Positions 914-33,243 of a stretch of DNA of 33,825 nt are shown here, one piece after another. The position numbers and the translations under genes are program-made. Location: positions 1-33,825 of the IMG/VR virus record IMGVR_UViG_3300046011_008061, one strand, 5' to 3'. The DNA comes from a virus. How positions within the stretch are numbered: position 1 is the stretch's first letter; every line of letters starts with the position of its first letter. The notes under the pieces were generated by a model that ran no database searches, was not told the origin of the DNA, and worked only from the letters and a program-made list of their open reading frames with translations.

Positions 914-916
914 ATC

Positions 917-1690: not shown

Positions 1691-1693
1691 AAA

Positions 1694-5288: not shown

Positions 5289-6258
5289 ATTTTCTCTCTA
5301 ATAGTTTTATATCATTATTAATCATAACATTTACCATTTGGTTAATGTCCGTTTTAGGTTCCCAATTCAAAACTTTTTGGGCTTTGGATGAATCCCCAAG
5401 TAAGAAATCCACTTCGGCAGGTCTAAACAATTTAGGGTCTTGGACCACGTATTGAGACCAGTCATCTATACCAACCTCAGCAAACGCTAAATCTAAAAAG
5501 TCACGTACCGAATAAACTTTGTTTGTTGCTATAACATAATCATCAGGAGTATCTTGTTGTAACATTAACCACATCGCCTCTACATAATCAGGAGCATACC
5601 CCCAATCACGTTTAGCGTCTAAGTTTCCTAAATAAAGTTTATCTGCAAGACCCAAGTGTATTTTTGCAACACCATCTGTAATTTTTCTAGTTACAAACTC
5701 ATGTCCTCTTCTTTCTGATTCATGATTAAATAGAATACCAGAACAATTAAACATGTCATAAGACTCTCTATAATTTTTAGTAATCCAGTGTCCGTAAAGT
5801 TTAGCAACACCATAAGGACTTCTTGGGTAGAAAGGTGTATTTTCATTTGCTGGTTCAGTACCCATTTTACCAAACATCTCAGATGAGCTTGCTTGATAAA
5901 ATTTAATTTTCTTACCACATTCTCTGATTGCTTCTAACATACGTAAAACACCCATTCCTGTTGTGTTACTTGTCATCTCAGGTGTATTCCAACTTTCAGC
6001 AACAAACGATTGTGCACCTATATTATAAATTTCATCTGGTTCGCTTTGTTTGATTGCTCTAAGAATTGAATTTTGGTCTGTAAGGTCACCTGAAATAATA
6101 TTTATTTTTCCGTCTAAATGTTCGACGTTCGTATTATTTTTTACTGAGGTTCTTCTTTCTAAACCGAATACTTCATAATCTTTACTTAAAAGTAAGTCTG
6201 CTAAATGACTTCCATCCATACCTGTTATGCCGGTAACTAATGCTCTTTTTTTTGCCAT
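5260..6258 (-). CDS. gmd: GDP-mannose 4,6-dehydratase
   Basis: The 332-residue extended SDR converts GDP-D-mannose to GDP-4-keto-6-deoxy-D-mannose, the branch point for fucose, rhamnose, perosamine and colitose. Visible motifs are VTGITGMDGSHLAD (8-21) for NADP binding, SSSEMFG (124-130) with the catalytic Ser/Glu pair, SPYGVAK (147-153) giving Y149-x3-K153, and NHESERRGHEFVTRKI (178-193), which is diagnostic of Gmd. Length is slightly below bacterial Gmd (about 345-375). Neither a GDP-fucose synthase nor a lysine-containing perosamine synthase is seen nearby; a ColD-like 3-dehydratase is. So the product is probably channelled to a 3,6-dideoxyhexose. The start is 5 bases after the preceding gene. 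Confidence 0.95.
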   Translation of the reverse strand: MAKKRALVTGITGMDGSHLADLLLSKDYEVFGLERRTSVKNNTNVEHLDGKINIISGDLTDQNSILRAIKQSEPDEIYNIGAQSFVAESWNTPEMTSNTTGMGVLRMLEAIRECGKKIKFYQASSSEMFGKMGTEPANENTPFYPRSPYGVAKLYGHWITKNYRESYDMFNCSGILFNHESERRGHEFVTRKITDGVAKIHLGLADKLYLGNLDAKRDWGYAPDYVEAMWLMLQQDTPDDYVIATNKVYSVRDFLDLAFAEVGIDDWSQYVVQDPKLFRPAEVDFLLGDSSKAQKVLNWEPKTDINQMVNVMINNDIKLLERKYAHTRSNSI

Positions 6259-6263
6259 TTTTA

Positions 6264-7052
6264 TTAGTTCGTTGTTTGATTTTTATTGTAGATTTCTCTG
6301 ATTTTTTCTAAATTTTTTGGGTCTGTGCTTTGCGTTATCTCAAACCATTTAGGTAAATATGCAAATGGTAAAAGTTCAGTCTGTAGACCTTCTTCGTTAA
6401 GTAATCTTTCAAGTGCCCATCCGTTTTGTCCGTTTGCTTTATATGTGTCATATTTGGTCATGATTTGATAGTCAGTTGCAAAACCTCTATGGATTACACA
6501 GTAATTTGTTTTTACTGCCGATTGCAAACCATCAGGATATTGTTTGTGATGAAGTCCTGATTGTTGTGGGAATGTCAGATTACCTGTATTTCTCCAAAGA
6601 GGAACCCAACCACCATTCAATGAATGGTATTGGTCATCCACTCTATAATGGATGTCACTCCTCCAAAGGTTGTAGTGGTCAAAGAAAAATGCGTCAACTC
6701 GTTCGAAACTACCTTGTCGACATAATTCTTTTAATAATTTTCCATCGTCATCTAACAAACGACCGTCTAATAATAAGTCACCATCTAACCATAAAATCCA
6801 ATCCGTATCAGGATGTTCTTTTAATAATTTTGTTAATAGTTCATTTTTACAAACAAGTTCTTCAGAAAAACGATTAACCTCAGATTCTATTACGGTTACA
6901 TTATCAAATTGTTTATAATATTCTTTACTTCCATCTGTGGAATTTTGGTCAAAAATGTACATGTGGTCACATACCGACATACACTTGAACCAATTTTCAA
7001 GGTTTCCCTTTTCTAATTCATTTCTCAACTGTGTGAAACCAACTATTTTCAT
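6264..7052 (-). CDS. GT2-family glycosyltransferase
   Basis: The 262-residue protein is a clear GT-A/GT2-type enzyme of the class that begins MKIVGFTQLRNE. It has FDQNSTDGS (residues 34-42), the usual nucleotide-binding loop, and WLDGDLLL (88-95) containing the D-x-D metal motif (D90, D92). The C-terminal part is rich in Trp/His (for example GGWVPLWR and GLHHKQYPDG) and probably forms the acceptor site. There is no membrane segment, so it should act in the cytoplasm on a soluble or peripheral acceptor. Spacing to neighbours is 1 and 5 bases. Specificity is unknown. Confidence 0.82.
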   Translation of the reverse strand: MKIVGFTQLRNELEKGNLENWFKCMSVCDHMYIFDQNSTDGSKEYYKQFDNVTVIESEVNRFSEELVCKNELLTKLLKEHPDTDWILWLDGDLLLDGRLLDDDGKLLKELCRQGSFERVDAFFFDHYNLWRSDIHYRVDDQYHSLNGGWVPLWRNTGNLTFPQQSGLHHKQYPDGLQSAVKTNYCVIHRGFATDYQIMTKYDTYKANGQNGWALERLLNEEGLQTELLPFAYLPKWFEITQSTDPKNLEKIREIYNKNQTTN

Positions 7053-7053
7053 A

Positions 7054-7854
7054 TTAATTTCTTATTTTATGCGATTTTAGTTTTTTAGTAATAGTATTAA
7101 AGAGATGCTGATTTCTGTATGCTTTATTTATTAAAACTGCGTCTTTAACTAAATTAGTGTAATGCCACTGGTGAATGGCAATTGGTTCATTAACAATTTC
7201 AAGTTTTAGATTCATTAATCGTATTCTTAAAAGTAGTTCGTCATCGTCAAAGGCGTGACCTTCAGCATATCTTTCATCAAATCCCCCAAGTTCATCCATA
7301 TTTTTTTTAGTCATCGCAGAAACAAAATGATAATAACTTGGTCTACAAAATGAGTGATTGTACCAGGCTTCCTCACCTTCTTGCGTGAACCCAATCATTT
7401 TGAATTCACCAATCTCGGTTTTAATTTTATCGTAGATGTTTTGCTCTTGAAAATCTAAGTTACCGATTCTTTGTGTTTTTTCTTGGTTGATTGCGTATGT
7501 GGAAAACGTTAAGTAATTTGTGTCGTTAATATTCTCTCTAATATATTTTAGTATGTCCCCCAAGTGTAGACACTCAGGATTTTGTAGGATGACAACATCA
7601 CCTTTTGCTTCTTTAATTCCTACATTAAATGGTACACAAGGGTTATGGTACCATTTGTCTTTTTTTTCTAATCTAACAACTTTAAGGAAACTAAAACGTT
7701 CTTGTAAATCTTCAATTCGTTCATTCTCATCAGAACAATCATCAACAACAATAAACTCTGTATTATCAACTTCGCTTGATTTTTTAATTGTTTCTAATGT
7801 GTTGATTAGTTGTGATTTTCTATTGTGGTAGGCACTTACGATTGATAATTTCAT
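7054..7854 (-). CDS. GT2-family glycosyltransferase with galactosyltransferase-type C-terminus
   Basis: The 266-residue enzyme carries the full GT2 pattern: strand MKLSIVSAYHNR, FIVVDDCSDE (residues 34-43), a QNPEC segment (91-95) at the DxD site, and GGFDERYAEGHAFDDDELLLR (190-210). The last resembles the acidic C-terminal motif of the GT2/GT27-type galactosyltransferase C-domain. The central acidic pair is reduced (NPE), which is common in this subgroup. Its start overlaps the upstream epimerase gene by 4 bases (ATGA type), suggesting coupled expression. Given the UDP-galactopyranose mutase in the cassette, a Gal or Galf transferase is possible but not shown. Confidence 0.82.
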   Translation of the reverse strand: MKLSIVSAYHNRKSQLINTLETIKKSSEVDNTEFIVVDDCSDENERIEDLQERFSFLKVVRLEKKDKWYHNPCVPFNVGIKEAKGDVVILQNPECLHLGDILKYIRENINDTNYLTFSTYAINQEKTQRIGNLDFQEQNIYDKIKTEIGEFKMIGFTQEGEEAWYNHSFCRPSYYHFVSAMTKKNMDELGGFDERYAEGHAFDDDELLLRIRLMNLKLEIVNEPIAIHQWHYTNLVKDAVLINKAYRNQHLFNTITKKLKSHKIRN

Positions 7855-8912
7855 AATAGATTTTTTAATGTTTCAATAATTTTATCTGACGTAGTACCAT
7901 CACCTAACCATTCAGTATTAATTTCTTTTTCGGAGTCTAACCAATCAAATGAGTCAGACCAAGTTTGATTATTTTCGGTGTTTACGTTAATCATAAATGA
8001 ACAATTATTTTCAACAGACTCAGGTCTTTCTGTAAAATCTCTTGGTACGATTACGGGTACTCCTAATAAACAAGGTTCTTCTTGTGCTGTACCAGAATCC
8101 GAAATAATAAACTTACATGAATTTATTTTTTTCAGGTAATTTTTGAAGGACATTAAATCAATTTTTTTAATGTTTCCTAAATCAATATTTTGTTTTTCTA
8201 ACTCTTGAACGGTTCTATTGAACGATAACATCTCAACTTCGCAGTTATACTTCTCAGCAACTAAATTTGCGTATTTTATGATGTTCTCAAGTCTTTCTTT
8301 ATATTTGAAATTTTCAGGTCGGTGGATATCTAAAACAATACTATTTTTCTTTTCTTCTTTTTCAAACGTTACTCCGTTAACAACTTCAACAATCGTATTA
8401 CCAACAACAAAAATATTTTCTGGTGAAATATTCTCCTTCAATACCTTTTCCTTGTAGTTATCGTGATAAACAAAAAGATAATCACTACAATGGTCACAAA
8501 TTGTTCTGTTAATTTCTTCTAACATTCTTTTATCGTATGACCTCATACCTGCTTCAATGTGTGCTATTTTATAACCTTCTTTTTTCAAAACTGTAGACGC
8601 TAACACAGAGTTTGAGTCACCTAAGAAAATAATAACATCAGGATTTAAATTCTCATTTCTGATTAACTCAATTAGTTTAATTTGTAATTCACTTGTTTGA
8701 TGAAAATGTTCTTTACCCATCCCACCAATACCTAAATTGTAATCAGGTTTTCTAATTTCTAATTCATCAAAAAAAACATCTGACAAAAGTTTATCGAAGT
8801 GTTGTCCTGTATGGATTAATATGTGATTAAAGCTATCATCTAACTTTTTGAAAATACTGGACATTCGGATAAAATCTGGACGAATACCAGAAACTGTAAT
8901 AATTGTTTTCAT
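7851..8912 (-). CDS. wecB: UDP-N-acetylglucosamine 2-epimerase (non-hydrolysing)
   Basis: The 353-residue GT-B-like epimerase interconverts UDP-GlcNAc and UDP-ManNAc. Recognisable family positions are SGIRPDFIRM (8-17, usually GTRPE), HTGQHFD (34-40), LGDSNS (97-102) with the Asp corresponding to E. coli WecB D95, HIEAGMRS (118-125), LEEINR (131-136) with the catalytic Glu pair, DIHRPEN (195-201) with the conserved His, and SDSGTAQEE, the UDP-binding loop. Length fits WecB (about 370). The altered GIRPD motif suggests a divergent member. UDP-ManNAc made here could be a donor directly, or a substrate for the dehydrogenase fragment at the left edge (UDP-ManNAcA). The gene lies between two glycosyltransferase genes, with a 4-base overlap downstream. 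Confidence 0.92.
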   Translation of the reverse strand: MKTIITVSGIRPDFIRMSSIFKKLDDSFNHILIHTGQHFDKLLSDVFFDELEIRKPDYNLGIGGMGKEHFHQTSELQIKLIELIRNENLNPDVIIFLGDSNSVLASTVLKKEGYKIAHIEAGMRSYDKRMLEEINRTICDHCSDYLFVYHDNYKEKVLKENISPENIFVVGNTIVEVVNGVTFEKEEKKNSIVLDIHRPENFKYKERLENIIKYANLVAEKYNCEVEMLSFNRTVQELEKQNIDLGNIKKIDLMSFKNYLKKINSCKFIISDSGTAQEEPCLLGVPVIVPRDFTERPESVENNCSFMINVNTENNQTWSDSFDWLDSEKEINTEWLGDGTTSDKIIETLKNLL

Positions 8913-8916
8913 CTTT

Positions 8917-10554
8917 TTAATTTATTATTTTAATATATTCTTCTTTTATTTTTTTTGCAACTTCAATTGAATTGAACTTCTCGACATCAACAGGAATTTC
9001 GTGTTTTTCTTTACTAAGAATTTCACCTTTGTCGTCTACTTGATAAATCCATCCGGGTTTTCCACATAACCAACCTTCTATGGTTGTTCTACCAAGTAAA
9101 ATACCTGCGGTTTCTGTACAGTTTTTTACATACTCCTCAACTTTATTGGTTGCCTGAAAATGTTTTACATGTGTATTTTCAAGTAATTCTGAAAGATAGT
9201 TCGATTTATTTTCACCAACTAACCAAAGTTCTTTGTTTTGTGATTTTGAATACTCCACTAAATCTTTAATTGTTTTTTCCCTTAAGTAATCTATTGTACC
9301 AACAAAAAGTACATAGGGGTATGTTTTAGTGTTTTTAGTGTTAAATCTATTAGTATCAATGGGATTATATATAACCTCAGTTAATTCTTGTTGTATATCA
9401 AAATTGTCAATTATATGTTTTTGTATTTCAGGTCTAATACAAATGTATTTTTTAATAGAATCATTTATAACGGGATTCTCCAAACTGATTACTTCTGAAT
9501 GTATTGTAGAAATTTTTGGGATATTTGGATACAATCCACAGATATGGTTAGTGATTGGGTTGTGTTGGGTATGGATGATATCGTAGTTTACTTCAGATAT
9601 CTTATACATCATGTTAGGTTGACTTTTAACAACACCTTGTGGTGTGTTTAATCCCCAAACACCATCACCAAGTTTATAACCTGGTGGTTCAGAAAATGGT
9701 AAAACTTTTACACCCTGTTGTTGTGCCAATTTAGATAGAGGACCCTCAATATCAGAAAGTACTGTTACATCACAATTTAATTTCTTTAAGCTTTTTGCCA
9801 ACTCATACACATACATTTCTGACCCCGTAAAGTTTTTGAAGAATAAACAAGACAATAATACCTTCAAAGGAGAGTTAACATCAAGGTTTCTTTTTATTTT
9901 GACGGGGAGTTTATCTTTGTGTTTCTCCGCAAACTTAATTCTGTTTTGTTCCCATTCTTCATTTGTGGCACCAATAGATTTGTGAGTTACTCTTACATCA
10001 TAGATAACACCAATTTTTACCTCTTCAATAAAATTTCTAAACGAAAAATCTACATCATAAAAGTGAAACCCTTTTATTTCTTCATTAAAAGTTTGTTTAA
10101 TGTTTTTCTTATTTAATACAATAAAAAGACCATCTACTAAAACAACGTCTTCTATTTGATTACCTAAACTTGCTGAGTATTTTGACTCCCATTTTTTACC
10201 GTCATGTTCGTGATTAACGATACCTTTCATTTTTGAAAAGTCTTCCCACCATTTAGCGGATTCGGGTAATTGTGTTGAACCAGCAAGTCCTAACACACCA
10301 TATTCGGGACTTCTTTTGAAGTGCTTTAATATTTTACTACCCCAATTCTTACTATCAAAATAGATGTCGTCATGACATAGCACAACAATATCATTTGTTG
10401 CTTGTTCTAAAATCATATTGTAAGCTTCAGGTAATGAATACTTACCTTCATTTTCTATTGGGATTATTTGTGGGTTCGATACCCCACATGATTTTTTTAA
10501 TAGCTCAACAAAACCATTATCAATTTTTCTGGTTGAAAATCCTATTGTTATCAT
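8917..10554 (-). CDS. Two-domain glycosyltransferase: GT2-like (N-terminal) fused to GT4-like (C-terminal)
   Basis: The 545-residue protein has two catalytic modules. Residues 1-215 are GT2-like: MITIGFSTRK start, LPEAYNMILEQATNDIVVLC leading to HDD (61-63), and GFHFYDVDFSFR (162-173). From about 230 a GT-B module begins: VLLSCLFF, then FTGSEMYVYELAKSL (242-256, a typical GT4 glycine/helix start), DIIHTQHNP, a VLFVGTIDYLREKT Rossmann start and a C-terminal GR-TIEGWLCGKPG loop with the conserved Glu. Such fusions may add two successive sugars to the same acceptor. The start overlaps the upstream UDP-galactopyranose mutase gene by 4 bases. The call as a double glycosyltransferase is firm; the sugars are unknown. 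Confidence 0.85.
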   Translation of the reverse strand: MITIGFSTRKIDNGFVELLKKSCGVSNPQIIPIENEGKYSLPEAYNMILEQATNDIVVLCHDDIYFDSKNWGSKILKHFKRSPEYGVLGLAGSTQLPESAKWWEDFSKMKGIVNHEHDGKKWESKYSASLGNQIEDVVLVDGLFIVLNKKNIKQTFNEEIKGFHFYDVDFSFRNFIEEVKIGVIYDVRVTHKSIGATNEEWEQNRIKFAEKHKDKLPVKIKRNLDVNSPLKVLLSCLFFKNFTGSEMYVYELAKSLKKLNCDVTVLSDIEGPLSKLAQQQGVKVLPFSEPPGYKLGDGVWGLNTPQGVVKSQPNMMYKISEVNYDIIHTQHNPITNHICGLYPNIPKISTIHSEVISLENPVINDSIKKYICIRPEIQKHIIDNFDIQQELTEVIYNPIDTNRFNTKNTKTYPYVLFVGTIDYLREKTIKDLVEYSKSQNKELWLVGENKSNYLSELLENTHVKHFQATNKVEEYVKNCTETAGILLGRTTIEGWLCGKPGWIYQVDDKGEILSKEKHEIPVDVEKFNSIEVAKKIKEEYIKIIN

Positions 10555-11627
10555 TTGATATTTTCTATAAAATTAAGTGCTGATAATATTACTTTATCCA
10601 TATCATAATATTTGTATTCAGCGAGTCTACCTCCAAAATAAACATTTTTTTCCTTAATGGAAAGTTTTTTATACTTTTCATAAAGTTCATTATTTGTTTT
10701 ATCGTTTACGGGGTAGTATGGGTCAGTAATATCAGGTTGGTATTCTACTGGAAATTCGTCAGTAACCCAAGTCACGTCTGATTCTGAATTTTCAAAATGT
10801 TTATGTTCTATGGTTCTTGTTTTTCGTGTTTTTTTATCAGTGTAGTTCATTATTGCGACTCCCTGATAATTTTTTGAATCTAACCTCATATGCTCAGATT
10901 CAACCGTTTTATACTCTAAAGGACCAAATTGATAGCTAAAATACTTATCTATTGGGCCCGTATATATCAACTTTTTATGTTTGGGTAAGTCATCCTTAAA
11001 AAAGTCAGTATTTAACTTTACATCAATACCGTCTAATAATTTTTCAAATATTTTTGTATAACCACCAATAGGTATTCCTTGATATTTATCATTAAAATAA
11101 TTGTTATCGTAGTTTAATCTTACGGGTAATCTTTCAATGATTTCTTTAGGTAAAAGTTTTGCCGACTTTTTCCATTGTTTTTCAGTATAACCTTTGATAA
11201 GTTTTTTGTAACATTTTTTACCAACTAAACTTATTGCGCATTCCTCTAAATTTTTTGGGTTGTCGTTCTGATACTTTTTTAATTTTTTAATTAGTTGGTG
11301 TGGGTGTGTAATGTTGTATATTTTAGAAAAAGTCCACATATTAAAAGGGAGAGAATATATCTCACCCTTGTAATTTGCAACAGTCCTAAGAGTAAAATTA
11401 TTAAATGATGTAAATTGGTTTATCCAAGACCAAACTTTTTCATTAGATGTGTGAAAAATATGTGGACCGTAGTCATGTACGTTAATGTTATCTCTGTTGG
11501 ACGTATAGCAATTCCCACCAATGTGATTTCTTTTTTCAATAACGCAGACTTTATGTCCCTTTTTGTGTAACTCATGTGCACAAATAGAACCAAAAAATCC
11601 TGAACCAACTATCAAATAATCATACAT
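10551..11627 (-). CDS. glf: UDP-galactopyranose mutase
   Basis: This flavoenzyme converts UDP-galactopyranose to UDP-galactofuranose. The sequence opens MYDYLIVGSGFFGS with the FAD GxGxxG motif, followed by an IEKRNHIGGNCYT segment and HDYGPHIFHT, the conserved substrate-side His region of the Glf family. Further family marks are RLPVRLNYDNNYFN, GIPIGGYTKIF, YTGPIDKYF and the C-terminal FGGRLAEYKYYDMD. From this start it is 358 residues, close to the usual 365-385. An upstream in-frame ATG at 11654 would add nine residues with no family counterpart and overlap the dUTPase gene by 26 bases. The start at 11627, one base after that gene, is therefore preferred. Galf-containing glycans are thus a likely cassette product. 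Confidence 0.95.
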   Translation of the reverse strand: MYDYLIVGSGFFGSICAHELHKKGHKVCVIEKRNHIGGNCYTSNRDNINVHDYGPHIFHTSNEKVWSWINQFTSFNNFTLRTVANYKGEIYSLPFNMWTFSKIYNITHPHQLIKKLKKYQNDNPKNLEECAISLVGKKCYKKLIKGYTEKQWKKSAKLLPKEIIERLPVRLNYDNNYFNDKYQGIPIGGYTKIFEKLLDGIDVKLNTDFFKDDLPKHKKLIYTGPIDKYFSYQFGPLEYKTVESEHMRLDSKNYQGVAIMNYTDKKTRKTRTIEHKHFENSESDVTWVTDEFPVEYQPDITDPYYPVNDKTNNELYEKYKKLSIKEKNVYFGGRLAEYKYYDMDKVILSALNFIENIK

Positions 11628-11628
11628 A

Positions 11629-12246
11629 TTACAATCCCGTAGAACCGAAACCATTACTGTTTCTGTCCTTATCTTCTATTTTTTCAACTTGGATTAAATT
11701 AACAAACTTTCCGCAAATAACAGGACATAAAACTGCTTGTGCAATTTTTTGACCTTTCTGTATTTTAACTCTTTCGTTTGTTGTGTTAAATAAAATTACT
11801 TTTATTTCACCTTGATATCCGCTATCAATAGTACCTGGTGAATTCAATACAAACAACCCTTGATTAAGTGCTAATCCACTTTTAGACCTAATTTGCACTT
11901 CATAGGATTCACTAATATCTAATCTAATACCTGTAGGAATTAAAGCTCTTGAATTTGGTTGGACCCAAACTTCTTCAGACGCTCTTAAATCAAATCCAGA
12001 ATCAGATGAGTATTCATAATGAGGGTTCTTATTTTCGGAAGAGTTTATATATTTCAAATCAATTTTGATTGGCTCGTCACCATACTCTTCATTCATTTGA
12101 TTAAAATGATTGTTCAAATCTTCTATATCAATACCTAAAGATTCTATAAATTTTTGAGGATTAGATAAGTCCGCGTTACCCAACATAGACTTCATCTCTT
12201 TAATCATTTTAATTTGTTGTTTAGCGTCTTTTAATTTATCAAACAT
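11629..12246 (-). CDS. dut: dUTPase (trimeric type) with N-terminal helical extension
   Basis: The 205-residue protein hydrolyses dUTP to dUMP. All five trimeric dUTPase motifs are present: SDSGFDLRA (motif 1), RSKSGLA (motif 2, one residue longer than the usual RSGLA), the NSPGTIDSGYQGE loop (motif 3 with the catalytic Asp), GQKIAQAV (motif 4) and RNSNGFGSTG (motif 5). About 60 residues precede the dUTPase core. They are Lys/Met/Glu-rich and probably helical, which is unusual for this family and may be an oligomerisation or interaction arm. The start ATG overlaps the stop of the upstream exonuclease gene as TAATG. The gene sits between glycan genes, unlike typical nucleotide-metabolism clusters. 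Confidence 0.93.
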   Translation of the reverse strand: MFDKLKDAKQQIKMIKEMKSMLGNADLSNPQKFIESLGIDIEDLNNHFNQMNEEYGDEPIKIDLKYINSSENKNPHYEYSSDSGFDLRASEEVWVQPNSRALIPTGIRLDISESYEVQIRSKSGLALNQGLFVLNSPGTIDSGYQGEIKVILFNTTNERVKIQKGQKIAQAVLCPVICGKFVNLIQVEKIEDKDRNSNGFGSTGL

Positions 12247-12974
12247 TATTTTAAGGATTTTAATTGTAAAATTGCGTTTATTAAAACATCTACATCTTTT
12301 TCGCAGTATTCTGCGATTTCTTGTAGTCTGTTATGGTTCCAATAAGCTTCATGAACCATTCCACCATTAATTGGTCCGTCTTTAGGAGTAGGAATATCTA
12401 AACACGTACACATTAAATCTAATGAACCAATTGCTGTGTATGCGCCATATTGCCAAATTTCTTTTGTGTCGATTGCCTTAACCTCCCAAGGTTTCGTATC
12501 GTATGAAGGAAGTATCTTTGAAGGCATAATTCCATTGATAATCATACGTTTTGCTAACATAGGAATATCAAAGTTTTTAAGGTTGTGACCACAAAGATAA
12601 AAATCTAATTTATGACATCTATTCAAAAGGTCTCTTACTTCTAACAATAACTTGTGTTCATCGTCGTTAGAAAAAGTTTGTTTTTTAATCTCACCATTTT
12701 CCAAAACAAACGCCATTGATACACAAACTATCTTAGCAAACTCAGGAACTAATGCTGTTCGTTTAGCATATACATCATCCATTTTTTGCATTTCTTCCTC
12801 AAGACCATTTGTTTCAACATTATCTTCTGGAAATCTTTTTAAAAACCAATCAAAGTATTTAACAAATTGCTCAGCAATTTTGGGGTGACTTTGTTGACAA
12901 GAACGCCAGTCTTTACATAGACCAACAGTTTCTATGTCTAAAAATAAAATTTTGTTAATAGGTACGTTTATCAT
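12246..12974 (-). CDS. DnaQ-like 3'-5' exonuclease (DEDDy)
   Basis: The 242-residue protein carries the three exonuclease motifs of the RNase H-like DEDD superfamily: FLDIETVG (11-18) with D13 and E15, GHNLKNFDIP with the second Asp, and a C-terminal Y-C-E-K-D pattern of the DEDDy class. It has a long insertion after motif I (WRSCQQSHPKIAEQF onward), a feature I associate with stand-alone PolB-type exonucleases in Bacteroidota and their phages. It would trim 3' ends of DNA in the cytoplasm, for example in repair or nucleotide recycling. It overlaps the upstream glycosyltransferase gene by 4 bases and the dUTPase gene by 1 base. Confidence 0.88.
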   Translation of the reverse strand: MINVPINKILFLDIETVGLCKDWRSCQQSHPKIAEQFVKYFDWFLKRFPEDNVETNGLEEEMQKMDDVYAKRTALVPEFAKIVCVSMAFVLENGEIKKQTFSNDDEHKLLLEVRDLLNRCHKLDFYLCGHNLKNFDIPMLAKRMIINGIMPSKILPSYDTKPWEVKAIDTKEIWQYGAYTAIGSLDLMCTCLDIPTPKDGPINGGMVHEAYWNHNRLQEIAEYCEKDVDVLINAILQLKSLK

Positions 12975-14185
12975 TTTATTAAGGATTTATATAATTCTGC
13001 TCTATCTTTTGTTACGTTATTCAAATCGTATTTATCTTTTACCGTTTCATAAAGTTTTTGTCCTAAATCATATGCTAAATTAGGGTTGTCAATTAATTTT
13101 TTCATGTATTTTGACCAATCGCTATGATTTCTTGCTTCATCAACTAACAACGCATTTCCGTCAGTAAATTCTCCTTTGTTTAGTGCGTGTTTCAAATCGA
13201 TAGTGTAAGGACCAATATTTGAAGCAATTATTGCCTTTTTATAGAACCCCGCCTCAATAACTTTAAGTTGTGATTTAACTCTATTAAATACGTGGTTTTT
13301 AATTGGAGCTAAAGAAACGTCAAACCATTTGTAGTTGTTTGCATAACTTGTTACGGGTTTTGTCCATATTCTATTGTAGAACGGAAGTTCATCACTTTTG
13401 TATTCCTCTTCAGCAAACTTCATTAAAAAATCTTTATGTTTACTATCAACTAACTTGTAATTGTCTGTAAAAATTTCTTCGTATCTTGCCCATACCGTTT
13501 CTTGTGGTAAGATATCTCTTTGTTTTTGTTCACCAGTTTGTTGGTTAATTTCTGTAACAGTACCTCTAATGTCAAAACCACATAAGTACATACTAAACTT
13601 ATCTTTTAATGGTGATAATTTATTCATAGTACCATCCAATAATTTCAAATCATGAAGGTGAGAAGAACCACCTAACCAACCGAATCTTAACTTATCTGAC
13701 GGTTCAGTTTTTGCTTTAAATTGTGGTTCATTTGGATTAATTGCGTTCGGTAAAACAAAAACATTTTTGTTAAACTTGGAAATCTCGTTCGCAAAAAACG
13801 ATGTTGTTGTTGTTACATAAGATGCAACTTTAAGATTTTCTATAATTTTTTTATGAAGATTAGTTTGTAAAACCATCTGATGTACGGGATGTTCTTTAGT
13901 TGGTAACCAATAGTCGTCTAAATCCATAATTGTTATGATACCAATAGAATTTAATCTTTGAATTAAGTCTACTGAGTTATCATAGTTGTGTGCGATTGTT
14001 CTGTGGAAATGTACGATGTCGTAATTTTTCCAAAAATTGTAATCATTAACTTTTGGTTCGTAGTCAATATCTACGTGAAATTCATCTGGATATAAATTTT
14101 GTAAACTTACGTGAGGGTCAATAGACCTAAATTTGCCCACACCTGTTTTATCTGAAGGTAGTACTAATACTTTAATTTTATTCAT
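12971..14185 (-). CDS. GT4-like (GT-B) glycosyltransferase
   Basis: This 404-residue enzyme has a GT-B arrangement. The N-terminal domain contains VLPSDKTGVGKFRS (8-21), IVHFHR (57-62) and DLDDYW (88-93). A short VLPNAIN linker follows, and the C-terminal domain begins at FGWLGGSSH and ends with the KVIEAGFYKKAIIASNIGPY donor-binding loop carrying the conserved Glu. The pattern resembles GT4 members from T4-like phages and bacterial surface-glycan clusters. It is the first gene of the minus-strand cassette, starting 37 bases after the terminator hairpin at 14225-14249, so a promoter for the cassette may lie in that gap. Sugar specificity is unknown. Confidence 0.8.
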   Translation of the reverse strand: MNKIKVLVLPSDKTGVGKFRSIDPHVSLQNLYPDEFHVDIDYEPKVNDYNFWKNYDIVHFHRTIAHNYDNSVDLIQRLNSIGIITIMDLDDYWLPTKEHPVHQMVLQTNLHKKIIENLKVASYVTTTTSFFANEISKFNKNVFVLPNAINPNEPQFKAKTEPSDKLRFGWLGGSSHLHDLKLLDGTMNKLSPLKDKFSMYLCGFDIRGTVTEINQQTGEQKQRDILPQETVWARYEEIFTDNYKLVDSKHKDFLMKFAEEEYKSDELPFYNRIWTKPVTSYANNYKWFDVSLAPIKNHVFNRVKSQLKVIEAGFYKKAIIASNIGPYTIDLKHALNKGEFTDGNALLVDEARNHSDWSKYMKKLIDNPNLAYDLGQKLYETVKDKYDLNNVTKDRAELYKSLIK

Positions 14186-22848: not shown

Positions 22849-23970
22849 TTAAATTACTGTGTATGGGCTTTGGAAGGCTCTTAACTTTAATAATTTGTTT
22901 AAGTTCTCCGCTTGTAAAGCCTTTTGTTCCATCATTTTTTCTGGACGTAATCTTTCAAGTCTTGCTTTAAGTTCTTCCCATAACATTGCCTTCTCATCTT
23001 TTGCTTCTGTTGCTAAAGAAGTGTAATCCATTGTTAACTCAGAATCGGGTGTTTTAAGATTACCACTAAACTTACCTCTAACTCTTCCTAAAGTTTCTTT
23101 ACAGTATGCAGTGAACCATCTTCTAACCCACGTTTGTGCGGGTGGATTAAGTTTATCCCATCTTAATTTATCTAATGGAACATCAGAAGGAAGTCTAATA
23201 ACGTCTGGGTTTTTAGCCAAACAATCTTCTCTATCGTAAGTATCATAATACCAATACCAAACTCGATAGTCATTTCGTTTCATATTACCAAAATCAAACT
23301 TACCACCAGGTACATTCATCAAGTGAATTGCTTTTTTTCCTTCAGGTAATGCGGTAACTCTATATGTTAAATCACCTGTAATAATTCTTCTTTTCATTTG
23401 AATGTCTGCCATTCTTAAAAGAATGTCAAATGCTGGTGTAATAAAATAATTACCCGTTGTTCCCATTTGTGAAAAACCGGCACCACCACCTAAACCGATA
23501 CCACCAAAACCCCCAAATCCACCCATGAATGGGTCAAAGTAAGCCGCGTCCAATTCAGGTCTTGCAAACCACAATAATTCGTTAAGTTCACGACCTGCGG
23601 GTATTTCATAAACTTGTTGGTTCGGCACTAAGTCGATATAATCTTTTTTTAACACCCAATCACCACCAGCCTGTAAACCTACAATTTTTGAATATGCATA
23701 AGTGAATTGTGTTTCCCAATCCATACTACGAGTAGATAGTGCTCTTGTAATAGATTGTTCATCAAGATTCAATCCGTAAACCGATGTCCATTGAGATTCA
23801 ATCAACCAGTCTTGTACGTGTTGTTCATAATCCTCAATAGATAACTCCAATAGTGAGTCCATCATTTCGTCTTCAAGTTCTACTGAACGTAAAGGTGCTC
23901 CCAAAAGATTACGTATTCTTTTGTAAAGTTTACTTCTATCTGGTTCGTTGATAATAACTGTAGTTGACAT
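22849..23970 (-). CDS. Neck protein-like (T4 gp13-type head completion candidate)
   Basis: The 373-residue protein starts with a short helical domain, YKRIRNLLGAP-LRSVELEDEMMDSLLELSIEDYEQHV (residues 16-51). It resembles the N-terminus of T4-like gp13/connector proteins, where a conserved L-G-x-P precedes an acidic helix. Residues 150-165 form a glycine-rich insert (GGFGGFGG-IGLGGGAG), an odd flexible loop. The C-terminal third is helical and charged. T4 gp13 is about 310 residues, so the size fits with the insert. A TATTTATA motif lies 11 bases upstream of the start (23982-23989), as expected for a late structural gene. The family assignment is by pattern only. Confidence 0.6.
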   Translation of the reverse strand: MSTTVIINEPDRSKLYKRIRNLLGAPLRSVELEDEMMDSLLELSIEDYEQHVQDWLIESQWTSVYGLNLDEQSITRALSTRSMDWETQFTYAYSKIVGLQAGGDWVLKKDYIDLVPNQQVYEIPAGRELNELLWFARPELDAAYFDPFMGGFGGFGGIGLGGGAGFSQMGTTGNYFITPAFDILLRMADIQMKRRIITGDLTYRVTALPEGKKAIHLMNVPGGKFDFGNMKRNDYRVWYWYYDTYDREDCLAKNPDVIRLPSDVPLDKLRWDKLNPPAQTWVRRWFTAYCKETLGRVRGKFSGNLKTPDSELTMDYTSLATEAKDEKAMLWEELKARLERLRPEKMMEQKALQAENLNKLLKLRAFQSPYTVI

Positions 23971-24005: not shown

Positions 24006-25094
24006 CTAAACAGACTTCTTTTTAATTTGTGTTGTATATTGGTCGTTTACAAATCCCCAATTCACAACTTTCCAAAAGTTTTTAATATATTCGTCTCGTT
24101 TATTTTTATATTTTAAGTAGTATGCATGTTCCCATAAATCTAACCCTAATAGAGGATAACCATTTTCTTTTTCAGTATTCATTAAAGGATTATCTTGATT
24201 AGATGTTGTAACAATTTTTAATCTATTATTTTTTGTTAAAATTAACCAAGCCCAACCTGAACCAAATTTAGTTTTAGCCTCTTCACTAAATTGTTCTTTA
24301 AATTTTTCAAATGAACCAAAATCTTTTTTTATTTTAGAAAGTATTGGGTCGGATATTTCTTGTTTTTTCGGAGATAACATTTTCCAAAACAAAGCGTGAT
24401 TAAAGGCACCACCACCATTGTTTTTAACAACCTTATTAAATTTTGAAATCTTTTCTATAATTTCCTCAAGGTCTAAATCTTTTCCTTTAATTTTTTCTAA
24501 CTCGACATTGAGTTTTTCAACATAACCTTTGTAATGTTTGTTGTAGTGAGTATTCATTGTTTCACTATCAATAAATTTTTCTAAGGAATTATATTCATAT
24601 GGAAGTTTATCAACACTTACTTTTTTTATTTCGTTAATTAATAATTCTTTCTTTGATGACTCAACCTCTAATAACGTTTCAATTTTTTCAATTTGTTCTG
24701 AAAAAGATTTGTATATAACTTTTTCCATTTCCTTATTATTTTTTTCAAACTTTTTAATTTCTTGGGATGCCTGTGAACTAGCATCATCCTCGTTTTTTCC
24801 ACCAATATCTTTTCCTTTTTTTCTTTTCAAAATTGTTCTTTGATATTCATGCGACCATTCGTGAGCTAATGTTCTTAATACATCACGATTTAATCTGTCT
24901 TTTACTAAAATTTTAAGTTTGTTTTTATCGGTTCTTGAACCTGTAGTCATCGTACCTGTTCTTTTATTTTGAAATAGAATATCAATATCATCCTTTAACG
25001 GATAATTTTTTTTAAGTTGTGAAATAAAATTGTTAATTAAAACTTTATCACTTTTACTAGGTTCAACTCCAATATATTCAATATTTACGTCCAT
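24006..25094 (-). CDS. Metallopeptidase-like domain fused to Fe/Mn superoxide dismutase domain
   Basis: The 362-residue protein has two parts. Residues 1-95 include LAHEWSHEYQ (76-85), a zinc-peptidase-type HExxH (H78, E79, H82). A charged, Lys/Glu-rich helical linker (96-160) follows. Residues 163-360 are a complete Fe/Mn superoxide dismutase: LPYEYNSLEKFID, THYNKHYKGY (H183, Y191), NGGGAFNHALFW (H233), GSGWAWL, NQDNPLM (Q300) and GLDLWEHAYY (D319, H323). All four metal ligands are present. Gly-rich 227-229 and Gln300 favour the manganese subgroup. SOD converts superoxide to oxygen and peroxide. The domain pairing is unusual. A late-type motif directly precedes the start, so it may be a virion or late protein. 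Confidence 0.9.
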   Translation of the reverse strand: MDVNIEYIGVEPSKSDKVLINNFISQLKKNYPLKDDIDILFQNKRTGTMTTGSRTDKNKLKILVKDRLNRDVLRTLAHEWSHEYQRTILKRKKGKDIGGKNEDDASSQASQEIKKFEKNNKEMEKVIYKSFSEQIEKIETLLEVESSKKELLINEIKKVSVDKLPYEYNSLEKFIDSETMNTHYNKHYKGYVEKLNVELEKIKGKDLDLEEIIEKISKFNKVVKNNGGGAFNHALFWKMLSPKKQEISDPILSKIKKDFGSFEKFKEQFSEEAKTKFGSGWAWLILTKNNRLKIVTTSNQDNPLMNTEKENGYPLLGLDLWEHAYYLKYKNKRDEYIKNFWKVVNWGFVNDQYTTQIKKKSV

Positions 25095-25098
25095 GATA

Positions 25099-25106
25099 TA
25101 TAAATA
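25099..25106 (-). promoter_or_regulatory. TATTTATA motif within a short palindrome
   Basis: ATGATAT (25093-25099) and ATATCAT (25104-25110) form seven-base arms around ATAA. On the minus strand the core reads TATTTATA, 4 bases before the SOD-fusion start codon at 25094. The whole sits in the 12-base gap after the helicase stop. Transcription from here would give a nearly leaderless message. Confidence 0.4.
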
Positions 25107-26925: not shown

Positions 26926-27441
26926 ATGGCAGATAATAGAGTTCCGATAACCAGACTAAATAAGTTTTTTTCTGAAGAAGACTTTAACTTAGATATTTCT
27001 ATGGGTGATGAATGGTTAGGTGGGGATATGAATTTTACCCTTGTTTTATACCGTATTGATAGACAAAGAACTATTAGTGATGATGTGTACGGTGAGACCT
27101 TAGAAGATGGAATACAGTTTTTACCTCCCGTTGAATTCAAGGGATATGTACAAATTGAAGCTCCTTCTAATGTTGATTATGGTTCCGCTAAATTATCACA
27201 AACAGAACCAGGTAATTTGAAAGTTGGCGTTTATCAAAAACAATTAGAGGAATTAGGTATTGATATAAACTATGGTGATTATATTGGGTATTACGAAGAC
27301 GAAACAAGAGTTAGATATTATAGTGTTGTAGATGACGGTCGTGTATTTTCTGATAACAAACATACATACGGTGGTTACAAGGCTTTCTACCGTTCTGTTA
27401 TTGCGGCACCAGTAACCGATAACGAATTTAGAGGAATATAA
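26926..27441 (+). CDS. Neck/head-closure-like phage protein
   Basis: The 171-residue protein starts with a basic N-terminus and continues with strands and turns: YGETLEDGIQFLPP, VEFKGYVQIEAP, and YGDYIGYYEDETRVRYYSVVDDG (about 124-146). The Y-G-D-Y-I-G-Y element and the YGE-PP pattern are typical of phage head-closure and neck proteins of the gp14 kind in marine T4-like phages. The assignment is only by pattern. It lies 1 base before the next structural gene and forms a unit with it, upstream of the tail sheath gene. That position supports a role in joining head and tail. Confidence 0.55.
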   Translation: MADNRVPITRLNKFFSEEDFNLDISMGDEWLGGDMNFTLVLYRIDRQRTISDDVYGETLEDGIQFLPPVEFKGYVQIEAPSNVDYGSAKLSQTEPGNLKVGVYQKQLEELGIDINYGDYIGYYEDETRVRYYSVVDDGRVFSDNKHTYGGYKAFYRSVIAAPVTDNEFRGI

Positions 27442-28958: not shown

Positions 28959-31900
28959 ATGGCATCATCTAATAAGGTTTTTGTTTCTCCGGGTGTGTAT
29001 ACATCAGAAAGAGACTTAACATTTGTTGCACAAAGTGTTGGTGTAACTACATTAGGAGTGGTTGGTGAAACTCTTCAGGGACCAGCTTTCGAACCTATTT
29101 TCATCACAAACTTTGACGAATTCCAAACATATTTCGGAGGTACTAGCCCTGAAAAATTTGTAAACACACAAATACCAAAATATGAATTGGCTTACATTGC
29201 AAAATCATACCTATCACAATCTAATCAACTTTTTGTTACAAGAGTACTTGGTCTTTCAGGTTACGACGCTGGACCATCTTGGTCTATTGTAACAATTGGT
29301 AATGTAAATTCAGCAACAATTACGGCTACGGGTATAACTACGGCAGTTGGTGTAACATTTACAGGTAGTACAGGTGGCACCGTAACATTAACATCGGTAC
29401 CTGCTTCGTTAAATGCAAGCGGTAATTTCTACACACCATACACTGAATTTAACGGTGGAACATCTACAATTGGTGGTGATTTACAAACATACATTTCTAA
29501 TCAAATTTCACTTTACTCAACAAGTGCATCGACTTCAGGTTCAAGTGCAATATTTTGGGGTACGGTAAGTGCATCTACATTTAACAGTACAACAGGTGTA
29601 ACACTTAATGGTACAGGTTCAATTTCAGCATGGACTGAAAATTTTGGTGTGGGTGTATTGACAGGTGCGACCGCAGCTTCACTAAGCGCTCAAACAACTA
29701 ACGACCCTTGGTATTACGCTTTATTTAATTACCAACCAGGTACAATTAATTCTTACTATGGTCAAGGTATGGGAGCGGCACTTTCAGGTATTTCAACAAC
29801 ACCTACTTCAGGTGTGTTCTCAGGTACTGTTGCATTCTATACAACAACATACTCGGCATTACCATACACAACATATGATGATATGGTAGTTGCAACATTA
29901 AGGTCAAGAGGTATATCTACATATACATCAACAAATGCGGGACCTTTCTATGAAGTTTCAGGTACATCTGATGTTAAGATGATATGTACAGGTTCTTATT
30001 CAGCGGTAACTGAAGACCCTTACGCAATATTCCAAATCTCAGGTAAAACTTACGATAATGATAATTTCACATTTGAAACTTCAATGTTAAGTACCGATAA
30101 AAATTATTTGAGAAATGTATTTGGAGCATCTAACTTTGGTAAATCAAGAACTGAAGTACCTTTATTTGTTGAAGAAACATATCCAGCATTACTTCAAACA
30201 GGATATAGAGCAGGACAAATTAGAGGTTTATATTGTAATTTGGTAAGTCTACCAGGAGCAAGGTCAGGTAATTCAGATAGTCTTGGATTCTATTTAGAAC
30301 AATACCAAACACCTGAAACACCATTTGTTGTTTCTGAACTAAGAGGTAATAAAGTTTTCAAATTATTTAAGTTTGTTCTAATCTCTGACGGTAACTCAGC
30401 TAATACATACGTTAAGTTGTCTATTGGTAATATTTCATTCAACAATGGAACATTCGATGTATTTGTAAGAGACTTCTTTGATAACGACCAAAACGTAAGA
30501 GTACTTGAAAGTTTCACAAACTGTTCATTAGACCCAACCCAAAACAACTACATAGCAAACAAAATCGGTACATCTAATGGTGAATACCAAGTTAAGTCTA
30601 AGTATGTTATGTTGGAGATGAGTGATGAAGCACCAACAAACGCACTACCTTGTGGATTCGAGGGTTACATCTCAAGAGAATATGCAAATGCAACTCCTCC
30701 ATTTGTACCTTATAAAACAAAATACTACACAGCGGGAGAAACAATTTACAACCCACCTTTCGGCTCAACTAATGGTGGAGATAATCCTGTAATCTCAAGT
30801 GGTGAAAACCCAAGAAGAGCTTACTTAGGTATTTCTAATATTACAGGTTTTGACTACGATTTCTTCCAATATAAAGGAAAACAACTTCCAGCAAGTTTAG
30901 CAACAGACACAACAGGTGCGGCTTGGGGTTATTTAACTAAAGGTTTCCACATGGATAGTGGAGCAACAGTTGTTACTATAACAAACGCTTATGCCACATC
31001 AGGTCAATCGGCATTTGAAGTAGGTGTTGGTTCATTTAATTCAGAACCAACTGATACAAATAACCCATACTACAGATTGAATACTCGTAAGTTTACATTA
31101 TTAGCTTACGGTGGTTTTGATGGTTGGGATATCTATAGAGAATATAGAACGAATAGTGACTCATATGCTTTAGGTCAAACAGCATTCAAATATGGTGCTG
31201 CAAGTTCGGTAACATATCCTACAGCATCAGGATGGGGAGCATTTAAAGCAATTTCAGGACCTAACCAAGAAAGTTGGGCTAATACTGACTACTACGCATA
31301 CAAATGGGGTCAAACAACATTTGCTAACCCCGAATCAACAAACATCAATGTGTTCGCTACACCAGGTATTGATTATGTAAATAACTCAAACTTAGTGGAA
31401 GATGCAATTGATATGATTGAAACAGATAGAGCAGATTCAATCTACATTACTACAACACCTGACTTCAATATGTTCTTACCAACTTATCAAGACATTACTG
31501 AAGGATTAATTTACCCACAAGAGGCGGTAGATAATTTAGAGGGTACTGGTATTGATTCAAACTATACCGCAACTTACTACCCTTGGATTTTAACAAGAGA
31601 TACGGTTAATAATACTCAAATCTATATTCCTGCAACTTCTGAGGTTGTAAGAAACTTAGCTTTGACTGATAACATCGCATTCCCTTGGTTCGCTTCAGCG
31701 GGTTACACAAGAGGTTTAGTAAATGCTATTAGAGCAAGACGTAAGTTAACACAAGACGATAGAGATACTTTATATAAAGGTAGAATCAACCCAATTGCAA
31801 CTTTCTCTGATGTAGGTACGGTAATTTGGGGTAACAAAACTCTTCAAATCAGAGAATCTGCACTTGACAGAATCAACGTAAGAAGATTGTTACTACAAGC

Positions 31901-32177
31901 TCGTAAATTGATTTCAGCGGTGGCTGTAAGATTATTGTTCGAACAAAATGATAACAAAGTAAGACAAGATTTCTTGGATTCAGTTAACCCAATCTTAGAC
32001 CAAATTAGAAGAGATAGAGGTTTGATTGACTTTAGAGTTCAAGTATCTAACACACCTGAAGATTTAGATTCAAATACATTAACAGGTAAAATCTTCTTGA
32101 AACCGACAAGAGCGTTAGAATACATCGACATCGAGTTTGTCATTACACCAACAGGAGCGTCTTTTGACAATATCTAA
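28959..32177 (+). CDS. Contractile tail sheath protein (T4 gp18-like)
   Basis: The 1072-residue protein forms the contractile sheath around the tail tube. The N-terminus SPGVYTSERDLTF (10-22), GVVGETLQGPAFEP (33-46) and YLSQSNQLFVTRVLG are the conserved sheath opening. The C-terminal 140 residues (LQIRESALDRINVRRLLLQARKLI, then FEQND and FRVQVSNTPEDLDSNTLTGKIFL) match the conserved inner domain that links neighbouring subunits. T4 gp18 has 659 residues. The excess comes from inserted regions, chiefly a Ser/Thr/Gly-rich beta stretch between about 105 and 345. The motif at 28916-28923 precedes it, and a strong GNRA-loop hairpin follows its stop. Confidence 0.95.
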   Translation: MASSNKVFVSPGVYTSERDLTFVAQSVGVTTLGVVGETLQGPAFEPIFITNFDEFQTYFGGTSPEKFVNTQIPKYELAYIAKSYLSQSNQLFVTRVLGLSGYDAGPSWSIVTIGNVNSATITATGITTAVGVTFTGSTGGTVTLTSVPASLNASGNFYTPYTEFNGGTSTIGGDLQTYISNQISLYSTSASTSGSSAIFWGTVSASTFNSTTGVTLNGTGSISAWTENFGVGVLTGATAASLSAQTTNDPWYYALFNYQPGTINSYYGQGMGAALSGISTTPTSGVFSGTVAFYTTTYSALPYTTYDDMVVATLRSRGISTYTSTNAGPFYEVSGTSDVKMICTGSYSAVTEDPYAIFQISGKTYDNDNFTFETSMLSTDKNYLRNVFGASNFGKSRTEVPLFVEETYPALLQTGYRAGQIRGLYCNLVSLPGARSGNSDSLGFYLEQYQTPETPFVVSELRGNKVFKLFKFVLISDGNSANTYVKLSIGNISFNNGTFDVFVRDFFDNDQNVRVLESFTNCSLDPTQNNYIANKIGTSNGEYQVKSKYVMLEMSDEAPTNALPCGFEGYISREYANATPPFVPYKTKYYTAGETIYNPPFGSTNGGDNPVISSGENPRRAYLGISNITGFDYDFFQYKGKQLPASLATDTTGAAWGYLTKGFHMDSGATVVTITNAYATSGQSAFEVGVGSFNSEPTDTNNPYYRLNTRKFTLLAYGGFDGWDIYREYRTNSDSYALGQTAFKYGAASSVTYPTASGWGAFKAISGPNQESWANTDYYAYKWGQTTFANPESTNINVFATPGIDYVNNSNLVEDAIDMIETDRADSIYITTTPDFNMFLPTYQDITEGLIYPQEAVDNLEGTGIDSNYTATYYPWILTRDTVNNTQIYIPATSEVVRNLALTDNIAFPWFASAGYTRGLVNAIRARRKLTQDDRDTLYKGRINPIATFSDVGTVIWGNKTLQIRESALDRINVRRLLLQARKLISAVAVRLLFEQNDNKVRQDFLDSVNPILDQIRRDRGLIDFRVQVSNTPEDLDSNTLTGKIFLKPTRALEYIDIEFVITPTGASFDNI

Positions 32178-32236: not shown

Positions 32237-32374
32237 ATGAAAATAGAAAAAAAATTAATCAAAGAATCTTTAGGTTATAATACTAAAGGAAAACAAACTT
32301 TCGCAGATAAGAAACAAAATATCATTATCACCGAAGCACAATTAGAAAAACTTTTAGAAAAACTTAAAAAATAA
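32237..32374 (+). CDS. Small (45-residue) basic protein with capsid-targeting-like start
   Basis: The frame opens at ATG 32237 and ends with TAA whose final A begins the next ATG (TAATG), so the two genes are translationally coupled. The protein starts MKIEKKLIKESLGYN and ends with an amphipathic IIITEAQLEKLLEKLKK helix. The N-terminal I-K-E/S at residues 8-11 resembles the prohead cleavage consensus (Leu/Ile-x-Glu). The function is unknown. The protein could be a small internal head protein or an assembly factor. Confidence 0.6.
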   Translation: MKIEKKLIKESLGYNTKGKQTFADKKQNIIITEAQLEKLLEKLKK

Positions 32375-33243
32375 TGAATATTAATAAATACGTAAGGGAT
32401 TTTGTAAAAAACAAACTTAACGAAGGTTTTACGGAAGAAGGTAATCCCGATACAAAGTATTATGCTTTTGATTGGGATGATAATATAATGTTTATGCCTA
32501 CGTCAATTATTGTTTTAAGTGAAAACGACGAAGAGGTTCCGATGTCCACAGAAGACTTTGCTGAACACAGACACCAAATCGGTAAAGAACCATTTAGTTA
32601 TAAAGGTACAACTGTTGTAGATTTTGCACCAGACCCATTTAGAAATTTTGGAGTTAAAGGTGATAAGAGATTTGTATTAGATGCTATGGTTGCATCTGTC
32701 GGTCCATCTTGGAATGATTTTGTTGAGTGTATTAATGGTGGTTCCATTTTTTCAATCATCACGGCAAGAGGACACAATCCAAATACCTTAAAAGAGGGTG
32801 TGTATAATTTAATAATGGCTAATAAGAATGGTCTTAATAGTAGAACATTAGCCGAAAACCTTTATAGATATAGAAATATCGGTAATGAAGTCACTGGTGA
32901 AAATAAGTCAAAAGCATTAACACCAAAAGAATTACGTGAGTATTTGGACCTTTGTAGATTTTATCCCGTGTCTTTCGGTGAGGGGTCTGCAACTAATCCT
33001 GAAGAGGGGAAAATCAAAGCGATGAGGGAGTTTATTTCTTATTGTAAAGATATGGCTCAAGAAATAGGTGAAAAGGCATTCTTCAAAAATGATGTAGAAA
33101 ATAATGAAATACTACCTATTATTGGTTTTTCTGATGATGACCCTAGAAATATAGATAAGATGAAAGAATTTTTAGATGATGAAGATACTGAAAAACTAGT
33201 AAAAACTTATTTAACTAAAGGAGGAGAAAAAAAGGAAATCTAG
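32374..33243 (+). CDS. HAD-superfamily hydrolase-like protein with capsid-targeting-like N-terminus
   Basis: The 289-residue protein shows the four HAD phosphohydrolase motifs: motif I FDWDDN (32-37; D33 and D35 as nucleophile and acid), motif II SIITARG (127-133; T130), a lysine near 213-215 for motif III, and motif IV GFSDDDPRNI (251-260; D254-D256). HAD enzymes act on phosphate esters, including nucleotides and DNA 3'-phosphates; the substrate here is unknown. The first 18 residues (MNINKYVRDFVKNKLNE-G) form a basic helix ending in L-N-E/G, which fits the T4 prohead protease consensus. It could be a packaged enzyme. It sits between the sheath and tube genes, where T4 has no such gene. Confidence 0.75.
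   Translation: MNINKYVRDFVKNKLNEGFTEEGNPDTKYYAFDWDDNIMFMPTSIIVLSENDEEVPMSTEDFAEHRHQIGKEPFSYKGTTVVDFAPDPFRNFGVKGDKRFVLDAMVASVGPSWNDFVECINGGSIFSIITARGHNPNTLKEGVYNLIMANKNGLNSRTLAENLYRYRNIGNEVTGENKSKALTPKELREYLDLCRFYPVSFGEGSATNPEEGKIKAMREFISYCKDMAQEIGEKAFFKNDVENNEILPIIGFSDDDPRNIDKMKEFLDDEDTEKLVKTYLTKGGEKKEI

Follow-up and report, generated by a model that had tools for sequence, protein, structure and literature searches.

A metallopeptidase-like HExxH domain fused to a Mn-type superoxide dismutase in uncultured T4-like phages: a putative head-cargo polyprotein

Main finding

We have identified a gene in which an HExxH domain is fused to a complete superoxide dismutase (SOD) on a virus record of 33,825 nucleotides, a fragment which is called the window below. 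The fusion is real and occurs in T4-like phages of a widespread, uncultured group. Between the two domains lies a linker ending in a predicted prohead-protease site, and comparable sites border other modules in relatives. Considering the architecture, the conservation, the placement of the motif, the shuffling of modules and the gp21- and gp23-type genes of relatives, we lean slightly toward the reading that the protein is a late-made polyprotein of head-packaged cargo, which would be processed by the prohead protease and then probably be delivered into the host by ejection. The features are collected in Table 1.

Table 1. Features of the fusion gene and its surroundings (positions in the window)
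Feature	Position	Strand	Basis
Whole ORF: HExxH domain, leader-like linker and Mn-type SOD, 362 aa	24006..25094	-	Frame, Pfam, PDB, full-length homologues
Minimal zincin-like domain (IrrE/SprT/M61-like fold), residues 1-120	24735..25094	-	AF2 model, PDB and BFVD matches, standalone homologues
HEWSH motif, residues 78-82	24849..24863	-	H78, E79, W80 and H82 invariant (53/53)
E102, candidate third metal ligand, in GGKNEDDA	24789..24791	-	Invariant (53/53); role inferred from gluzincin/IrrE pattern
Variable linker, residues 121-155, resembling the N-terminal leader of HExxH-less SOD proteins	24630..24734	-	Linker/leader alignment
LINE, residues 152-155, predicted prohead-protease site LINE|IKK at SOD start	24630..24641	-	E155 53/53; P3 I/L 51/53
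Complete Fe/Mn SOD domain, residues 156-355, Mn-type markers G317, L318 and Q300	24030..24629	-	Pfam, PDB, alignment, fold match; metal markers from PMC10172142
TATTTATA box, late-promoter-like, 12 nt before ATG	25099..25106	-	GATATTTAT-type box in nearly all relatives
Downstream neighbour, head-tail connector (neck) protein	22849..23970	-	phrog_211, E 2.5e-10; synteny kept in relatives

Occurrence and conservation of the fusion

The fusion is encoded by a single uninterrupted frame of 362 residues (24006-25094, minus strand), which starts with ATG and shows no frameshift. A search of IMG/VR returned at least 559 stretches related to this ORF, and four scans recovered at least 117 distinct complete fusion proteins from IMG/VR contigs. 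From the 117 we took a representative set of 53 proteins at less than 85% identity; these are related to one another, and the counts out of 53 are not independent trials. Because the full-length fusion is seen on many independent contigs, a frameshift or assembly join between two genes was rejected, and the HExxH-like domain fused to a complete SOD that the original prediction had described is upheld.

The fusion was found neither in the bacterial genomes nor in the annotated phage records that were searched. A bacterial origin of the fusion was rejected: at 57 bacterial and archaeal loci the match covers little or nothing beyond the SOD part and begins only at residue 110 or later. As far as collections show, the family has no cultured member, and in the open-access literature searched we found no paper that describes an HExxH-SOD fusion or that ties a phage SOD to the prohead or virion in such a system.

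The residues H183, H233, D319, H323, Y191 and Q300, all of which had been named in advance as metal ligands or companions, are correct and invariant in the 53 representatives, as are W281 and, in the N-terminal domain, H78, E79, W80, H82 and E102. For the SOD the dN/dS values are 0.03-0.12; those of the HExxH part are mostly 0.07-0.18, although one pair reaches 0.42, and the linker usually has higher values. By these sequence comparisons, both domains are under purifying selection.

Superoxide dismutase domain

Sod_Fe_N (1.5e-22, residues 161-241) and Sod_Fe_C (3.1e-42, residues 250-351) were both found above the Pfam cut-off. In the PDB sequence search 160 distinct sequences match, and those among the matches listed are SODs throughout; they are Mn and cambialistic SODs, with S. 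aureus SodA (5n56, E 3e-58) as the best. With regard to a possible loss of ligand geometry, the modelled SOD part superposes at the fold level on a Sphingobacterium MnSOD (Foldseek, target-normalised TM 0.89, rmsd 1.7). Mn preference is associated with a C-terminal Gln and with Gly or Ala at XD-2, two residues before the Asp ligand (PMC10172142). Both Q300 and G317, which occupy these positions, are invariant in the 53 representatives, indicating that the domain carries the Mn-type preference markers, in agreement with the metal type first proposed. The same proposal had offered a structural scaffold as one role of the SOD; this is unsupported, because all catalytic residues are invariant and the dN/dS of the domain is as low as given above.

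The likeness to SodFM1-type MnSODs, such as S. aureus SodA and the Sphingobacterium enzyme, extends to all ligands, the C-terminal Gln, the Gly at XD-2 and the fold. Unlike these, the phage SODs carry a fused N-terminal domain and in many cases a C-terminal module, and the 27 placed in a tree form one clade on a long branch (support 100/100), whose nearest bacterial row is a weakly placed Saprospiraceae SOD. Standalone SODs are also encoded by Vibrio phage 2.275.O, Pseudomonas phage PA5oct and Bacteriophage sp. MW462191. These are likewise Fe/Mn SODs in phage genomes, but they share only 26-36% identity over the SOD, and the annotated phage records searched contain no full-length match.

N-terminal HExxH domain

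Residues 1-125 were modelled with an AF2 pLDDT of 90.6. The invariant E102, which was absent from the original list of residues, is by analogy a candidate third zincin ligand. The best match in a PDB fold search was an M61 aminopeptidase (probability 0.97, but a weak E of 0.067), and BFVD returned a phage HExxH protein (E 2.7e-11) and viral models including IrrE/SprT-like proteins (E 1e-4 to 1e-5). The domain search of the window protein gave no match to a curated Pfam peptidase model, and DUF6055 (0.00076) lies below the cut-off.

The model resembles minimal zincins (HExxH...E). With IrrE/ImmA (M78), SprT-like proteins, M61 gluzincins and small phage HExxH proteins, the domain shares the HExxH, a downstream Glu in E(D/N)xA and the existence of standalone phage homologues, and it may share a zincin-like fold; it differs in its fusion with an SOD, in lacking a Pfam peptidase match and in the weak E of its PDB fold match. 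The domain is found alone in 129-aa genes (contigs L244 and L251-L253), and distant free-standing homologues occur in cyanophages S-SRM01 and B23, of which the latter matches M78 below the cut-off (0.00089). The B23 protein starts with MNYKQFLRE|STE, resembling the capsid-targeting sequence of T4. Such an N-terminal sequence is absent from the intact fusion protein, which counts against the head packaging proposed below, whereas HExxH-less SOD homologues start with a leader-like sequence that may have a targeting role.

Linker and predicted prohead-protease site

The linker (about residues 118-155) is variable, and its sole invariant residue is E155 (53/53). Residue 153, at P3, is I or L in 51 of the 53 proteins and V in the other two. 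In T4, the prohead protease gp21 recognises L/I-x-E and cuts behind the Glu (PMC9026906). At P1' the fusion proteins mostly have M or I, whereas T4 gp22 is cut at Glu-Ala; this counts against a gp21-type cut, although L/I-x-E is stated as the whole motif. By distance to the LPY motif, the site lies at most one residue from the N-terminus of ordinary SODs. The I/L-x-E context of E155 at the SOD start thus suggests a predicted prohead-protease cut site. The linker holds 3.2 [LI]xE motifs per protein versus 1.7 +/- 0.14 in shuffled sequences, although such a short motif is partly expected from the composition of an E/L/I-rich helical linker.

The gp21-type Peptidase_S77 is encoded on 6 of 16 related contigs and Gp23 on 7 of 16. 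In the 33.8-kb window itself neither gp21 nor gp23 was identified, and the homologues come from relatives. In all five gp23-type proteins of relatives that we examined, [HF]LINE|A precedes the conserved capsid region, and the LINE of the window linker (LINE|I) consists of the same four residues.

An internal start that yields free SOD was also considered. Codon 156 is ATG in 38 of the 53 genes and ATA, ATT or ATC in 15, and it encodes Ala in two HExxH-less forms, so an internal start is not supported. Since the codons vary and the residue is M, I or A, the constraint on E155 acts at the protein level. A proteome-wide count of double-LxE leaders at protein N-termini gave 9, versus 2.0 in shuffled and 3.5 in internal sequences. 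Because one capsid protein accounts for five of the nine and single LxE motifs are hardly enriched (61 versus 52), this general enrichment was not convincing and was set aside as evidence.

The main alternative is that the protein stays uncut in the infected cell as a late bifunctional enzyme. In this case, the SOD would help to maintain the redox balance of the host late in infection as an auxiliary metabolic gene, the HExxH domain would have host or phage proteins as its targets, and a flexible helix would be all that the linker provides. Both active sites are intact, and in a study of Lake Erie a viral Fe/Mn SOD is counted among the auxiliary genes, with viral SODs read as protecting the infected host (PMC12542629). 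The linker is also predicted to be helical, with low model confidence over residues 130-168. However, an uncut enzyme leaves the invariant E155 in a gp21-type motif unexplained, and the same is true of the sites and leaders of relatives described below. We therefore consider it rather unlikely.

Exchange of modules among relatives

In 27 of the 53 representatives the ORF extends past the SOD into unrelated modules, which form at least three unrelated groups and one further. An [LI]xE follows the SOD in every one of the 27, versus 13 expected from shuffled sequence windows (background about 0.31); this regularity is the second that an uncut enzyme does not explain. A contrast between these 27/27 and the 2/26 found among short C-termini was set aside as confounded, because most short tails stop before the site.

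Further arrangements were found through a neck-gene search. Nine SOD proteins do not have the HExxH domain and retain the leader at the N-terminus, which again an uncut enzyme leaves unexplained; two of these leaders end in LISE|A or LIEE|A. No HExxH was found elsewhere on the SOD-only contigs, which are partial. The C-terminal modules are encoded by genes of their own as well, with leaders of the MKxIxTES type, for example MKYIFTESQLDILKNKILINE|DFTAKNFP, and tandem small genes in relatives start with MKIIITES or MKIIISES. As the leader is found at N-termini or between domains, it travels with the modules, which would be predicted for a processing site and not for a plain linker. The C-terminal modules gave no convincing match in Pfam, PHROGs or PDB sequence searches, and motifs of the GIDCxI...QIKPF type are what mark some of them as nuclease-like.

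It is also conceivable that the HExxH domain is a mere long propeptide or head-targeting domain, cut off and lost during head maturation so that the SOD alone stays. Prohead propeptides of 111-254 residues are known from SPN3US (PMC10052503), and the cut here would fall at residue 155. The invariance of the HExxH motif and E102 under purifying selection and the existence of the domain as a free protein argue against such a role. In addition, SOD homologues exist that do not have it, so the domain is not needed for targeting in all of them. We regard this explanation as improbable.

Two observations were made beside these counts. HExxH-less leader-SOD proteins of about 510 aa, followed by a PD-(D/E)xK-like module (GIDCxI...QIKPF), are encoded on contigs L434 (1270-2799), L436 (from 2439), L437 (from 752), L464 (from 2419), L470 (from 2441) and L480 (from 2441). 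Between the fusion and the neck gene, contigs L415-L421 carry tandem genes of 103-151 aa with the MKIIITES or MKIIISES start, some of which are like the C-terminal modules; these genes are possibly a family of small cargo proteins.

Late-type box and gene neighbourhood

In nearly all relatives the fusion gene is preceded, at almost the same position, by a GATATTTAT-type box. The TATTTATA form also precedes the neck, gp14-like, sheath, tube and other structural genes, and it is called late-type because of this company only. It is found within 45 nt upstream of 39 of 242 genes of relatives, versus 11 for the reverse orientation. On the coding strand it reads as the T4 late consensus TATAAATA reverse-complemented. 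Accordingly, the late-type motif noticed at first stands as a box common to structural genes, but its orientation is opposite to that of T4. The box is possibly the late promoter of this phage group. In the window it also lies on the coding strand 11-43 nt before the structural genes at 22849-23970, 26926-27441 and 28959-32177.

The neighbour that had been called neck-like indeed matches the phrog_211 head-tail adaptor, and the order SNF2-type helicase, fusion ORF, head-tail connector, small protein and DNA polymerase B is kept. The adjoining connector gene and the box common to both would fit a neck or tail-completion component with the SOD as a structural domain. On the other hand, the catalytic residues are invariant, and the domain make-up varies across relatives while the neck gene stays. 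The nearest phages in sheath and capsid searches are Flavobacterium phage immuto, Microcystis phage Mel-JY01, uncultured phage LR756508 and Rhodothermus phage RM378; the fusion is absent from all four, including the complete immuto genomes, which also speaks against a neck component. We consider such a role very improbable. A Bacteroidota host is plausible.

Proposed mechanism and comparison with known systems

In the reading that we favour, prohead-protease-type sites suggest a concrete route to the virion carriage that was first proposed. The fusion gene would be expressed late, alongside the structural proteins of a T4-like phage, and the polyprotein would enter the prohead. A gp21-type protease would then cut the linker after [I/L]-x-E, with the last cut at E155|I156, freeing a MnSOD with a near-native N-terminus and a separate small putative metallopeptidase. 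In relatives, a third module, with a nuclease-like motif in some families, may be freed likewise. The mature proteins would remain with the DNA and would probably be ejected into the new host, where the SOD may remove superoxide at the start of infection; it may also shield the virion contents beforehand.

The T4 internal head proteins (Alt and IPI-IPIII, processed by gp21) are alike in the proposed late head cargo, the I/L-x-E sites and the possible ejection, and the same protease and capsid families are present in relatives of the window phage. They are unlike in that one polyprotein here would combine an SOD, a zincin-like domain and exchangeable modules as cargo, with the leader between domains and the processing predicted. 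In giant eukaryotic viruses, SOD is listed among virion-packaged proteins (PMC9405923). This is alike as SOD cargo of a large virus, which we propose here, but the Megavirus enzyme is a Cu,Zn-SOD, and enzyme and viruses are unrelated.

More tentatively, and with somewhat less confidence than doubt, we propose that this lineage builds modular cargo polyproteins (metallopeptidase, SOD and further modules, some with nuclease-like motifs) in which re-usable prohead-protease leaders separate the modules. The capsid protease would then serve as a polyprotein processor, and an antioxidant enzyme would be delivered into the host with the genome. If this is true, the phage carries its own superoxide defence in the particle, and reactive oxygen would genuinely limit early infection or persistence in sunlit water. 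T4-type capsid proteases would then process modular cargo polyproteins, and leaders bounded by [LI]xE are a suggested way to read cargo modules from sequence.

Other genes in the window

The tail sheath protein (28959-32177, plus strand) has 1072 aa, and the PHROG sheath models match its C-terminal part only. By eye, a large cluster at 137-14185 (minus strand) holds glycosyltransferase-, GDP-mannose dehydratase-, aminotransferase- and UDP-galactopyranose mutase-like genes. The ORF at 32374-33243 (plus strand) starts with MNINKYVRDFVKNKLNE|GF and has a DWDDN motif; it may be a HAD-like enzyme whose N-terminus resembles a leader.
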